Part shown: one piece after another, positions 4,125-16,116 of the stretch
Position numbering within the stretch: the first letter of the stretch is position 1
How the letters are laid out: every line of letters starts with the position of its first letter
Assembly (NCBI RefSeq): GCF_002954545.1
Contig: NZ_MSCH01000003.1
Coordinates: 2,023,991 to 2,087,990, forward strand
Length of the DNA: 64,000 bases
Direction: 5' to 3'
Source of the DNA: Psychrosphaera saromensis
Lineage (GTDB): Bacteria; Pseudomonadota; Gammaproteobacteria; Enterobacterales; Alteromonadaceae
Made by a program: the position numbers and the translations under genes
Notes under the pieces: model-generated
Told to the model about the DNA's origin: nothing
The model's database searches: none
The model's input: only the letters and a program-made list of their open reading frames with translations

Positions 4125-5972
4125 ATGGATAAAATAAAAGTGAATTCAGACAAAAAGAATACGTCAATAGAAGAGTTAGAATATGCCATTGTATCTAAAA
4201 ATTATGTAGATGCTGAAGAATCCCTAACACTATTAATACGTCAGTCAGTGGAGAATAAGATTGAGCTAGTTGTAGCTCCATTTGATAGAACATTGACAAA
4301 AGAGCAGAAAGAGCTTGAAAGTTATCAAGTTATTGAAAAATTAGCCGTATTAATTACTATGTGGTTTTCTGATAAGAGTTATAAACCAAGCGACAATACA
4401 TATGCTTTTATTTGTTTGCAAAAAATGTTCATTAGTAATGTGTTTGCCGCGAGTTCTTATCATTCGACTGATCATATTTTAGCTAACTTAGGTTTAATGG
4501 GAAAATCGGAATATACCTCCATCGAGTTACAAATGTTGTTGTTTGTTATAACGAATGAATCATCACTAGAGATCCCTTGGGATGTGATGTTTAAACACTT
4601 ACCTGAACACTCTATTTTGGCTTACTCAGGCTTAATAAGATCTATTAATGTTCAGCTTAGTGAAAGGGCTCATAATTCGATTGCAAGACTTATTGAAGCC
4701 GCCAGTTATGCTCCAGTCGTTAAATCATCAAATGTTGCTAACTTATCACCACTCATCTCAACACTTTTCAATTGTAGTAATCTTAACGGAAAAAATAAAT
4801 ATTTTATAAAACAGTGGGTAGTCAAGTCTTTAAATAAATACATGGAGGACAATCTAGATAAAAAATTAAAATATAAGATAAAAAACGAAGTTAGGACTGT
4901 GCCTAATAAAGACAAAGCTAAAATGGTTCTAATCCATGAGCACTATACTGAAAATCATGCAATGTATCGTTGTTGGCATAGCTCATTTAAGGCGTTTTTA
5001 CATGATTTTAATGTCACAGCTATAGGTTTAAGTTCATGTGTGGATGATGTAGGAAGAAAAGATGCACATCACTTTACAGGAATAGAAGATAAGTATGACG
5101 TGGTAGGCTTCATTGAAGCAATATTAAAGGAAAAGCCGGATATCGTTGTATTTGCTTCCATTGGTATGTCAATGTTTGCACCATTTATCGCTACTCAGCG
5201 ATTAGCACCAATTCAAATAGTTTGTGGTGGCCATCCATCAAGTAGTTATATGGATACAATTGATTATATGCTTTGGGAAGACTTCGTACCAAAATCTGTA
5301 ATGAAAAAAATCCTTACCGAAAAATTTTTACCTTATAAATCTAATTTTACACCGGCAAGAATGGTTCCTTATTCATTAAATATTTCACCTAAAGACGATA
5401 CAGTAAAAATCATTATTAATGGTGTAGTACAAAAAATAACCACGGAGCTTGTTGGAATATGTAATCGTTTGATGGAAAAGACTGATAAAAAGTTAGAGTT
5501 TCACCTGTTTATGTCTCATCCAAAACAAGACTTAGATTACTTTTCTACAATGTCTATATTACGTAGGTTTATGCCATCTTGTATTGTCCATCCATTTACC
5601 AATTATAATGATTACATGAATGTTGTTGGTAATTGTAATTTTGCACTACCCACAATTCCTTTTGGTGGATCAAATAGTAATATAGATTTAATAAGGTTAA
5701 GAGTGCCTAAATTATTTATACAGGATGAAAGCGATTTATGTGGTTTAACCGATTACCAGATCTGGAAAAGTGTTGACGTTTTGGATGGATATTGTAGTGA
5801 TGTTATTGAACTAGAAAAACGAGCTTTAGAATGGATCTTAGATCCTAATTTATTAATTCCAATTAAAGAAAAGTTAGAGTGTACAGAGGTTACTAATTTA
5901 ATGTTGGATTGCGAGAAGTCGGTTGAATCTGATTTTCGAATTGCAAATGCAATTAAAAGTACATTAAATTAA
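4125..5972 (+). CDS. putative GT41/OGT-like glycosyltransferase
   Basis: A 615-residue cytoplasmic protein. The C-terminal half (about 265-600) has features of the OGT/SPINDLY/HMW1C-type GT-B fold (family 41): RLAPIQIVCGGHP followed by IDY (residues ~359-381) resembles the conserved acceptor-site block of that family. FGGSNSNIDLIRLRVPKLF (513-531) resembles its nucleotide-sugar block GGxTxxxDxLxxGVP. The N-terminal ~260 residues are helical and unrecognised. Family members transfer a sugar to Ser/Thr or Asn of proteins in the cytoplasm. Lying right after fliS and between flagellin genes, flagellin is the likely acceptor (inference). There is no ribosome-binding site before this ATG because a terminator abuts it; a GTG at 4140 is an alternative start. 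Confidence 0.75.
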   Translation: MDKIKVNSDKKNTSIEELEYAIVSKNYVDAEESLTLLIRQSVENKIELVVAPFDRTLTKEQKELESYQVIEKLAVLITMWFSDKSYKPSDNTYAFICLQKMFISNVFAASSYHSTDHILANLGLMGKSEYTSIELQMLLFVITNESSLEIPWDVMFKHLPEHSILAYSGLIRSINVQLSERAHNSIARLIEAASYAPVVKSSNVANLSPLISTLFNCSNLNGKNKYFIKQWVVKSLNKYMEDNLDKKLKYKIKNEVRTVPNKDKAKMVLIHEHYTENHAMYRCWHSSFKAFLHDFNVTAIGLSSCVDDVGRKDAHHFTGIEDKYDVVGFIEAILKEKPDIVVFASIGMSMFAPFIATQRLAPIQIVCGGHPSSSYMDTIDYMLWEDFVPKSVMKKILTEKFLPYKSNFTPARMVPYSLNISPKDDTVKIIINGVVQKITTELVGICNRLMEKTDKKLEFHLFMSHPKQDLDYFSTMSILRRFMPSCIVHPFTNYNDYMNVVGNCNFALPTIPFGGSNSNIDLIRLRVPKLFIQDESDLCGLTDYQIWKSVDVLDGYCSDVIELEKRALEWILDPNLLIPIKEKLECTEVTNLMLDCEKSVESDFRIANAIKSTLN

Positions 5973-12796: not shown

Positions 12797-13371
12797 CTAG
12801 GCAATTAATATACCAGAGTTTTAGCTGTGTATGCACATATAGAGGGGTAGTTAAATCTAATCAATTATAAGATTGCGTAAAGCCGTTTTCCAACTTACGG
12901 CCAAACATCCATTTTATGATGAACATCATTAACTAACTGTGCCAATTATTTGTCGTACCTTAGATACCAAGGCCTAATACCAAACACACCAGACACCAAG
13001 CCCAGATGCAGCAGTCCAGGTAAAACAGCTCACGTACAGATGCTCAGATATCGCAGCTGGGCGATATTGTCAGTTTTCATGGATATCCACCGAAAAGCGT
13101 AAACTTGTATTAATCACCCTTAATATCTATTCCATTAGAATCCGCGAGTGACTGTATTAAATTAATGATGGAAATTACGTGGCAATAATTGCCGCCTTAG
13201 TATCCAGGTTTTGGGGGGGAAAGTATAAAATTAAAAATACACAGATACATATTATTCAGCTTTGGTTGTGTAAGCCTTTATGGCTAAAGGGGTGAGGTAA
13301 TGTAATAAATATATTCTTATGTATCAGTGGGTTATAAATAACATCTGTTTTTATGCAAAAAAAAGCTAAAG

Positions 13372-13391
13372 AGCGGCAAGATCTTGCCGCT
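13372..13391. repeat. perfect 20-nt palindrome near the flagellin start
   Basis: Ten bases (agcggcaaga) are followed directly by their exact reverse complement (tcttgccgct). It lies between the two candidate starts of the proteolytic flagellin (ATG 13353 and GTG 13431), so it is either coding or a 5' leader hairpin/operator. Confidence 0.85.
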
Positions 13392-13430
13392 ATCGTCAAA
13401 TGGAATACTATTTTTTGTGGTCATATAATT

Positions 13431-15203
13431 GTGATTATTAATACCAACACGAGTTCGTTGCAGTTAACGGGATTGTTTCGTAAGAGCAATCTTGCGTTGA
13501 CTAATATCTACAGTCAACTCTCGTCTGGTTATCGTATTAATTCGGCAGCTGATGATGCAGCGGGCTTGCAGATATCCACTCGTATAACATCACAAGTCAA
13601 TGGTATGAAAGTTGCTATTAGAAACGCTAATGACAGTGTTTCTATGATGCAGGTGGCAGAAGGTGCCATGCAGGAAGTGACTAACAATTTGCAAAGAATG
13701 CGCGAAATTGCACTTCAAGCTGCCAATGCCACTAACGGTGTTGTTGATAGAAAAGCACTGAATGATGAATACTTGGAACTACAAACAGAAATTAACCGGA
13801 TAAATGAAACGACAACATTTGCAGGCCAACGACTATATGAAACCAATGGTACATCAATCCCTGATGAGTTCGAAAGGGAGATGGTCAGTGGCTTACAAAG
13901 TACCTGGTTAGGTGAGTCGGAACAAATAATAGAACAATACTTTGGAATTACCGGCCAGGGAGAACTCAAGTTAGACTTAGAACGTGATGTCGACGACGGC
14001 ACGTTGGCTTGGGTGAGCAGTGCAACGGTAGGCGGCGTAAAAAGAGTTACCTTAACTGTCGATTTAGCTGAATTTTCTGACATCAATAGTATCCATAATG
14101 GATTGGATAAGTACGGTGATGTTAAGTTAGATGAAATTATTTTACATGAAATGGTTCACGCCACTATGGTGTCGACTATGGATGACTTTGATAATTTACC
14201 AGCCTGGTTTAAAGAAGGCTCTGCTGAAGTATTGCGCGGTGCAGACGATCAGATTGAAGGAAGTACCAGTGCTGCAGTTCTGGCTGCATTTAATAGCCAA
14301 GGTGCTGCCACAACGGTAACGGATCAGTTAGGTGCTTATGGCGGCGGTTTTGTTGCAATGCGCTATATGGAATACACATTAGGCAGTGATGGCTTAAAGG
14401 ATTTAATGCAAGAATTGGCTGGTGGCGAAACATTCGATAATGCATTAAGTACAGCATCAAATGGTAGCTGGACAAGTGAAGCTGATTTTAGGGCTTCATT
14501 AACTGGAGCTGCAAACGACAGTGCTACTTATGGTAGTCGTATGGAAGAGTTCATGGCTGAAGAAATGGACTCAACCAATAAAGACAATGGCGCACTTGGC
14601 GGGAAAGATGCTAGTAATGGTTTCATTCGCGAAAATGTGATGACAGGTTACGGTAGTGGCGATCGTAGCGGGACTCGTGGTTTTACAGAAAGTATCATTT
14701 TAAATGATAACGACAGTGACCAAACCGATTTTTCAGTAACGTCAAATTGGCTTGATAGTAATCGTGGCGATGTCGCACTGCAAGATTATGAGTTAAATGT
14801 TACTAGCGCTGGAGGTCGATTACATACGTTTCAGATTGGTGCTAATGCCAATCAAACTATGCAAGTTAACTTTGGCGCAATTGGCACGACAACCTTAGGG
14901 TTAGATAATGTCGACATTGTGAATCGACCACAATTTGCCATTTTTGCACTTGATGATGCAATGAAGATTGTTGATAAACATCGTTCGCTTTTAGGTGCAA
15001 CACAAAACCGGCTAGAGAGTACGGTTAATAATTTAAATAATGTAGTAGAAAATCAAAGCGCAGCTCGTTCGCGTATTCTTGATACTGATTATGCAACTAA
15101 AACTGCAGAGTTAGCTCGGTATCAAATTATGCAGCAAGCCTCTATTGCATTGTTAACTCAAGCTAACCAGTCGCAAGAGTTGGCCTTAGCTTTAATTGGC
15201 TAA
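13431..15203 (+). CDS. proteolytic flagellin (flagellinolysin-type)
   Basis: A 590-residue flagellin with a zinc-peptidase insert. Residues 1-142 are the N-terminal D0/D1 (IINTNTSS, RINSAADDAAGLQIS, FAGQRLY). Residues ~464-590 are the C-terminal D1/D0 (FQIGANANQTM, LGATQNRLEST, ending LALALIG). Between them lies a ~320-residue insert containing HEMVH (239-243) and, 23 residues later, WFKEGSAE with Glu266 as likely third zinc ligand: a gluzincin pattern as in flagellinolysins, which form proteolytic filaments. I chose the GTG at 13431 because flagellins begin just before IINTN. An in-frame ATG at 13353 would add 26 residues with no flagellin likeness. Neither start has a good ribosome-binding site. 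All catalytic residues look intact. Confidence 0.93.
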   Translation: MIINTNTSSLQLTGLFRKSNLALTNIYSQLSSGYRINSAADDAAGLQISTRITSQVNGMKVAIRNANDSVSMMQVAEGAMQEVTNNLQRMREIALQAANATNGVVDRKALNDEYLELQTEINRINETTTFAGQRLYETNGTSIPDEFEREMVSGLQSTWLGESEQIIEQYFGITGQGELKLDLERDVDDGTLAWVSSATVGGVKRVTLTVDLAEFSDINSIHNGLDKYGDVKLDEIILHEMVHATMVSTMDDFDNLPAWFKEGSAEVLRGADDQIEGSTSAAVLAAFNSQGAATTVTDQLGAYGGGFVAMRYMEYTLGSDGLKDLMQELAGGETFDNALSTASNGSWTSEADFRASLTGAANDSATYGSRMEEFMAEEMDSTNKDNGALGGKDASNGFIRENVMTGYGSGDRSGTRGFTESIILNDNDSDQTDFSVTSNWLDSNRGDVALQDYELNVTSAGGRLHTFQIGANANQTMQVNFGAIGTTTLGLDNVDIVNRPQFAIFALDDAMKIVDKHRSLLGATQNRLESTVNNLNNVVENQSAARSRILDTDYATKTAELARYQIMQQASIALLTQANQSQELALALIG

Positions 15204-15306: not shown

Positions 15307-16116
15307 ATGAAAATTAATAGCAGCAATACAACGACATCTTTGAATACGTCTTTTTCTAAAGTTAAAGAGCAACAAGAAGAGTCTATGAAACGCCTTGTTA
15401 CTGGCTTAAAAATAAACTCAGCCAAAGACGATGCCGCAGGTTTACAAATAGCGAATCGCTTGGGCAGCCAATCGTCTGGTATTCAAGTTGCCATGCGTAA
15501 TGCAAGTGATGCATACAGTTTAGCTTCTGTTGCTGAAGGTGCTTTGTCAGGTATTAATGATGCCGCCATGAGAATCAATGAATTATCACTACGTGCTGCT
15601 AATGCCTCAGTAAGTGCAGCAGATAGAGATGCAATTCAACAAGAAATTCTTCAACTACAAGATCAAGTTGGTGATATTCAATCAAATACCACATTTGCTG
15701 GGCAATCAATTTTTACTCAATCGAGTAATAGCCAATTTCAAGTTGGTCCTAATGCAAATACGACGATTGGATTAAGCTTTTCGAGTTTGGATGAACAAGT
15801 AGATGCGTTAAATGCTATTGATGTTACTACGGTAGCTGGCGCGCAAGCAGCAATAACGTCAACTCAAGAGATTAACGAAAGTATCGGTTCCATGCGTGGT
15901 AATATTGGTGCATTCCAAAACCGTATTGAATCAACAATTAGTAATCTAGCTAATACATACGAGCAAACAGAAGCGGCGAAAAGCCGTATTGAAGATACTG
16001 ACTTTGCTAAAGCAAGTGCTGATAATGTTCAAGCGTCTATTTTGGGACAAGTTAATACTGCAATTCAATCTCAGGCAAATGTGTCTCAAGGTATGGCGTT
16101 GAATTTACTAAATTAG
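15307..16116 (+). CDS. short flagellin lacking variable domains
   Basis: A 269-residue flagellin made of only the core D0/D1 domains. The N-terminal helices carry RLVTGLKINSAKDDAAGLQI, the D1 hairpin reads FQVGPNANTTIGLSF, and the C-terminal helices contain NRIESTISNLANTYEQTEAA and KSRIEDTDFA and end GMALNLLN. There is almost nothing between the halves, so it would form a smooth filament segment. It differs clearly from the other two flagellins here (KINSSNTTTSLN in place of IINTN), so it is a separate lineage rather than a recent duplicate. It ends before a strong terminator. Its ribosome-binding site (GGGGTAGAGC) is fair. Confidence 0.95.
   Translation: MKINSSNTTTSLNTSFSKVKEQQEESMKRLVTGLKINSAKDDAAGLQIANRLGSQSSGIQVAMRNASDAYSLASVAEGALSGINDAAMRINELSLRAANASVSAADRDAIQQEILQLQDQVGDIQSNTTFAGQSIFTQSSNSQFQVGPNANTTIGLSFSSLDEQVDALNAIDVTTVAGAQAAITSTQEINESIGSMRGNIGAFQNRIESTISNLANTYEQTEAAKSRIEDTDFAKASADNVQASILGQVNTAIQSQANVSQGMALNLLN

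Follow-up and report, generated by a model that had tools for sequence, protein, structure and literature searches.

We found an open frame beside the flagellar genes of Psychrosphaera saromensis whose sequence supports a flagellin with a gluzincin-type peptidase in its middle, a member of the flagellinolysin family (NF033876 / MEROPS M101). The gene lies in a stretch of 64,000 nucleotides (G000:C6:2023991-2087990, in a genome of 3.64 Mb), here called the window, and its features are collected in Table 1. It is a new member of a family that is already known: flagellinolysins were described in 2017 (PMC5595980), and a form from Pseudoalteromonas tunicata, and thus the marine type, is already in print (PMC7643111). 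What the present analysis adds is a corrected start, a promoter-like box, a locus that is stable in the genus, and evidence of separate histories for the flagellin shell and the protease.

Table 1. Features of the flagellinolysin gene and its surroundings, in window positions; residue numbers, here and in the text, are counted from GTG 13431 unless given for the 616-codon frame.
Feature	Position	Strand	Evidence
Sigma-28-like promoter box, TAAA-N15-GCCGCTA	13367..13392	+	Pattern match
Flagellinolysin (peptidase embedded in flagellin), 590 aa from GTG	13431..15203	+	NF033876, Pfam Flagellin_N and Flagellin_C
N-terminal flagellin arm (D0/D1), residues 1-139	13431..13847	+	Flagellin_N, 119.9 bits
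Peptidase region, residues 150-400	13878..14630	+	Alignment A1; Peptidase_MA_2 below cut-off; dN/dS
Asp211, candidate equivalent of C. haemolyticum calcium-site Asp206	14061..14063	+	Position inferred
HEMVH, residues 239-243; presumed ligands His239 and His243, presumed general base Glu240	14145..14159	+	DNA, alignment
WFKEGSAE, residues 259-266; presumed third zinc ligand Glu262, basement Ala265	14205..14228	+	Alignment
C-terminal flagellin arm (D1/D0), residues 495-590	14913..15200	+	Flagellin_C, 73 bits
Short flagellin, 269 aa, constant downstream neighbour	15307..16116	+	Pfam ends

The list of open reading frames of the window holds a frame of 616 codons at 13353-15203, which the first-pass annotation had read as a flagellin enclosing a zinc metallopeptidase of the flagellinolysin type. 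The flagellin ends were borne out, Flagellin_N matching residues 29-165 and Flagellin_C residues 532-614 in the numbering of the 616-codon frame, both over the Pfam cut-off. The family type held as well: the whole protein scored 280.8 bits with NF033876, the NCBIfam equivalog for flagellinolysin, against a curated cut-off of 205, and besides the flagellin ends it has the invariant ligands, Glu and basement Ala. A profile search of the insert, which the annotation had in mind as a check, came out in two ways. With NF033876 a 296-residue piece of the insert alone reached 202.3 bits, just under the whole-protein cut-off, so that the match is independent of the flagellin arms, but with Peptidase_MA_2 (Pfam) it reached only E 3e-4 and 21 bits, under the cut-off of 32.4. 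Of the motifs, HEMVH, WFKEGSAE and a Glu 23 residues past the first His are in place, but 366 residues and not ~320 lie between the Pfam matches; the peptidase part takes up roughly residues 150-400. Placement with an Alteromonadales type also fits, as G138, a genome of the window's family, and Colwellia sp. 75C3 have identical peptidase regions, from which it follows that the family includes Colwellia. Against NF033876 the short flagellin downstream scored 29 bits, a weak match through the shared arm; since ordinary flagellins match in this way, all counts given below took scores over the cut-off only. A phmmer search of solved chains with the insert returned a glucanase as its sole match (E 0.16) and no relative. 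The closest homologue of the flagellinolysin peptidase is, per PMC5595980, the peptidase domain of clostridial collagenase (M9), of which the window's insert is not a member by Pfam Peptidase_M9 (E 0.11, 12.2 bits against a cut-off of 26).

The gluzincin pattern, with three presumed zinc ligands and a catalytic Glu as first described, is present, and its residues do not vary among the relatives aligned. More specifically, H239, E240, H243, W259, F260, E262, G263, A265 and E266 are invariant in 43/43 aligned relatives, in an alignment gathered through a motif filter, 32 of its rows being profile matches over the cut-off (32/32 passed the filter). Two named relatives were missed by this filter, L059 with Y at W259 and L065 with Q at E266, and in both the two His and the ligand Glu are kept, as is the general base. 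The codon of the ligand Glu stands at 14214-14216, 19 residues past the second His, and across rows the spacing from HExxH to the third ligand runs from 17 to 24 residues, being longer in L065 and L168. Asp is found at position 211 in 34/43 relatives, and from it to the first His there are 28 residues here against 27 by the numbering of PMC5595980. dN/dS with respect to the sister genome G006 was 0.026 for the N arm, 0.090 for the peptidase and 0.057 for the C arm, values that come from one pair because dS was saturated in most regions against G003 and G005. The invariance of the ligands and the low dN/dS argue for a maintained enzyme.

Among the M101 proteins, Clostridium haemolyticum FliA(H) (PMC5595980) and Hylemonella gracilis HgrFlaMP (PMC7643111) share with the window's protein the arms, an HExxH with a downstream Glu, an Ala at +3 and an insert in the variable region. 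Both are active and EDTA-sensitive and require calcium and zinc to be fully active; according to the 2020 paper (PMC7643111), the H. gracilis enzyme is the second flagellinolysin described biochemically, and the biological function is unclear. From the second His to the ligand Glu there are 19 residues here against 25 in C. haemolyticum by the numbering of its paper (PMC5595980). The gene of FliA(H) lies within a flagellar gene cluster, as here, whereas that of HgrFlaMP stands among non-flagellar genes. The P. tunicata flagellinolysin (UniProt A4C6E0 per PMC7643111) is marine and gammaproteobacterial like the window's, a likeness by description, and the protein used in that paper was an inactivated HAxxH variant that served as substrate. 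A relative from Pseudoalteromonas denitrificans (L054) is 47% identical to the window's protein.

At the locus, six structural flagellins (512-527 aa) stand in tandem, partly before the window and partly within it. After them come FlaG, FliD and FliS and a gene set resembling one for glycan synthesis and transfer (an HMW1C_N protein, two methyltransferases, an ATP-grasp protein, WbqC and a DegT aminotransferase). Beyond it come the flagellinolysin, the short flagellin and a DUF2919 gene, in this order. The HMW1C_N protein of the sugar-gene set, 615 aa long and encoded at window positions 4125-5972 beside fliS and the flagellins, matched HMW1C_N with 65.9 bits and an N-glucosyltransferase model with 152 against a cut-off of 1000, far under it; it is possibly a flagellin glycosyltransferase. 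In the six-flagellin tandem (L009, G000:C6:2012500-2028000), four of the six genes are identical in the arm columns of our tree and differ in the variable region; these are the same four that carry a sigma-28-like box 54 nt before their start.

The start at 13353, as first annotated, is probably wrong, and GTG 13431 is most likely the true start, which makes ATG 13353 early by 78 nt. The GTG was preferred because the ATG sits 5' of the promoter-like box, because the sister genomes G006 and G003 carry a stop shortly 5' of the same GTG, and because the Flagellin_N match begins only at residue 29 of the 616-codon frame. The 590-aa protein would begin (V/M)IINTN, and the open frames of G006 and G003 are 599 and 593 aa. 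The box we take to be a sigma-28-like (flagellar late-gene) promoter, going by the consensus. With a search pattern composed after inspection of this very site, 4 matches were found in 64 kb against 0.50 expected, and 0/100 shuffles reached 4. The pattern, ending 54 nt 5' of the start codon, is carried by 4/6 of the tandem structural flagellins, and the box is found upstream of the flagellinolysin in 5/7 genus genomes; G003 has a near match, and of these seven G007 has no such box. A perfect palindrome of 20 bp at 13372-13391, AGCGGCAAGATCTTGCCGCT, covers the box's spacer and the larger part of its downstream element; on the minus strand it also scored as terminator-like.

Matches to NF033876 over the cut-off were found in 7/8 genomes of the window's genus, in 25/196 genomes of the family (the genus's seven included; 18/188 outside the genus), in 9/295 genomes sampled from the order, 2 of them from the window's family, and in 0/14 control genomes. 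G002 is the genome of the genus with no flagellinolysin over the cut-off, so that the gene is dispensable there. The order flagellinolysin, short flagellin, DUF2919-type gene is kept in 7/7 bearing genus genomes. G007 has FliS between the flagellinolysin and the short flagellin, and G001 and G004 have an extra gene (205-210 aa) ahead of the DUF2919-type gene. An obligate pairing of flagellinolysin and short flagellin is ruled out by G002, where the short flagellin adjoins the DUF2919-type gene and the flagellinolysin is missing. A query with the short flagellin gave at least 205 bits in 8/8 genus genomes and no more than 182.8 bits in 35 other genomes; 25 of these 35 score over the NF033876 cut-off, and among them the maximum was 153.6. 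The short flagellins of seven genus genomes form their own clade (SH-aLRT 100), with or without a flagellinolysin nearby. A dedicated chaperone, considered because fliS lies nearby in several relatives, was set aside, as the FliS match is single in 28/33 genomes searched; none of the five with two matches belongs to the window's genus.

Several loci outside the genus, or otherwise unusual, were also observed. Related flagellinolysin loci occur in G054, G106 and Colwellia ALOHA_DT_126 (L035, L036 and L063). The peptidase regions of G054 and G106 are identical and these genomes are assigned to different genera, therefore a recent transfer is suggested; near its flagellinolysin G106 has, in addition, a pair of adjacent FliS matches. 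In G526 (L168) the flagellinolysin lies within a giant flagellin, an open frame of 1094 aa with extra sequence on both sides of the peptidase. In G004, a genome 88% complete, the gene is split over two frames (L136:5910-7596), by decay or assembly error. Finally, L048:1204-2454 (G105, same family) encodes a flagellinolysin-type peptidase (238.5 bits against 205) that lacks flagellin arms and matches nothing in Pfam at E 0.001. As it nests inside a flagellin-borne group in the insert tree, it looks flagellin-derived rather than ancestral. A wider spread of arm-free peptidases was rejected: a class-level search with L048 matched 8/369 genomes (E 1e-12, G000 included), with no match extending into its first 94 residues, so that L048 stands single there.

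The shell and the insert gave conflicting trees, in a comparison framed post hoc, when the trees had already been inspected. In the arm tree a single clade (SH-aLRT 99) holds the shells of G000, G006, G003, G005, G001 and G004, and the same clade appears in an N-arm tree of 36/43 rows (SH-aLRT 100), while SH-aLRT in the C-arm tree was 44, too low to settle the grouping. No flagellinolysin falls in the group formed by the 22 structural flagellins of the comparison (SH-aLRT 96), and since the shell clade stands apart from them, the flagellinolysin shell looks like a separate flagellin lineage. In the insert tree (residues 150-400) the inserts of G001 and G004 stand apart from the other four, and a single insert clade was rejected (p-AU 3.5e-4). 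Along the protein, residues 1-40 and 81-145 of G001 are nearest to the window's group; most of 216-315 and the stretch 383-410 are nearer to the other insert lineage, and the segments 41-80, 146-215 and 316-350 are non-discriminating. The branch of G007 is long in the shell tree and the insert tree alike. Its insert joins those of the window's four (SH-aLRT 83); for its shell, a place with the others is neither firmly supported nor rejected (p-AU 0.50).

These observations suggest that the insert was replaced on the branch of G001 and G004, a protease-for-protease exchange inside a standing flagellinolysin gene. We lean slightly towards a general form of this reading, in which the shell would be a fixed docking frame at one locus and M101 modules would be exchanged by within-gene recombination, leaving related species with different proteases on filaments of one kind. 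An exchange of the arms instead of the insert would give the same conflict, yet the arms group in the same way as the short flagellins next to them. A less likely explanation, doubtful to us and still deserving weight, is that the discordance is an artefact of long branches and fast evolution of the insert and that the gene was simply inherited down the genus. Indeed, the branches to the two insert groups are long (0.64-0.95 changes per column), residues 150-275 alone do not reject a single clade (p-AU 0.09), and residues 216-315 alone barely do (p-AU 0.043). Against an artefact, the rejection survives in a careful tree from which seven rows were dropped (p-AU 0.0012), after realignment of the insert only (p-AU 7e-5) and with residues 276-400 alone (p-AU 5e-4), and G001 lacks nearly all of the segment 411-440, like the other insert lineage, whereas the window's group has it. 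In the insert tree, a placement of G001 and G004 at some other point on the window's side was not rejected (p 0.14).

As to function, the sequence makes it quite probable that the gene encodes a flagellinolysin, which as a filament subunit, and probably a minor one, carries a zinc-dependent and probably calcium-dependent endopeptidase as a surface domain. Sigma-28 would transcribe the gene alongside the late flagellar genes, as the promoter-like box suggests. Judging from the arms and the 2017 study, the protein would leave by the flagellar export channel, its D0/D1 arms would polymerise together with the six structural flagellins, and the insert would fold on the outside of the filament. There His239, His243 and Glu262 would hold zinc and Glu240 would activate water, cutting extracellular proteins near the filament. 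Display on the filament and proteolysis are inferred from the two characterised relatives (PMC5595980, PMC7643111), and by the same analogy large hydrophobic residues would be expected to be preferred at P1'. Possible roles are nutrient supply from particulate protein, interaction with biofilms and attack on the flagella of other cells; the digestion of host protein and the different specificity of the marine form, both raised in the first-pass annotation, would be hypothetical.

The protein may instead leave the cell by the flagellar channel to work as a free enzyme, so that the filament would contain little of it. The shell lineage is indeed separate from the structural flagellins compared, and the armless peptidase of G105 means that the peptidase can occur without a filament; both arms are nevertheless under strong purifying selection, and in flagella of C. 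haemolyticum flagellinolysin is the second most abundant protein (PMC5595980), which makes a free enzyme improbable. We consider it still more improbable, indeed hardly to be expected, that the insert is a peptidase-like fold serving as a binding or structural domain with weak or absent catalysis. The variable spacing up to the third ligand, including the 25 of C. haemolyticum, would agree with such a domain, as would the minor activity on casein, and no more, of full-length H. gracilis flagellinolysin (PMC7643111), but in a dead enzyme some of the ligands or the general base should have been lost, whereas they are invariant throughout the alignment and the peptidase dN/dS is as low as 0.09.

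The flagellinolysin routes given in PMC5595980 are whole-gene transfer and also insertion of a protease into an ordinary flagellin; if true, protease-for-protease exchange would be a third route beside these two. In the excerpts of the flagellinolysin and domain-exchange literature cited here (PMC5595980, PMC7643111, PMC12153261, PMC7018530) we found no account of such an exchange within a flagellinolysin. With one locus in 7/8 genomes, a natural absence in G002 and two kinds of insert, the genus is a ready comparative system, which could address the purpose of proteolysis on the filament and the effect of a change of insert on specificity.
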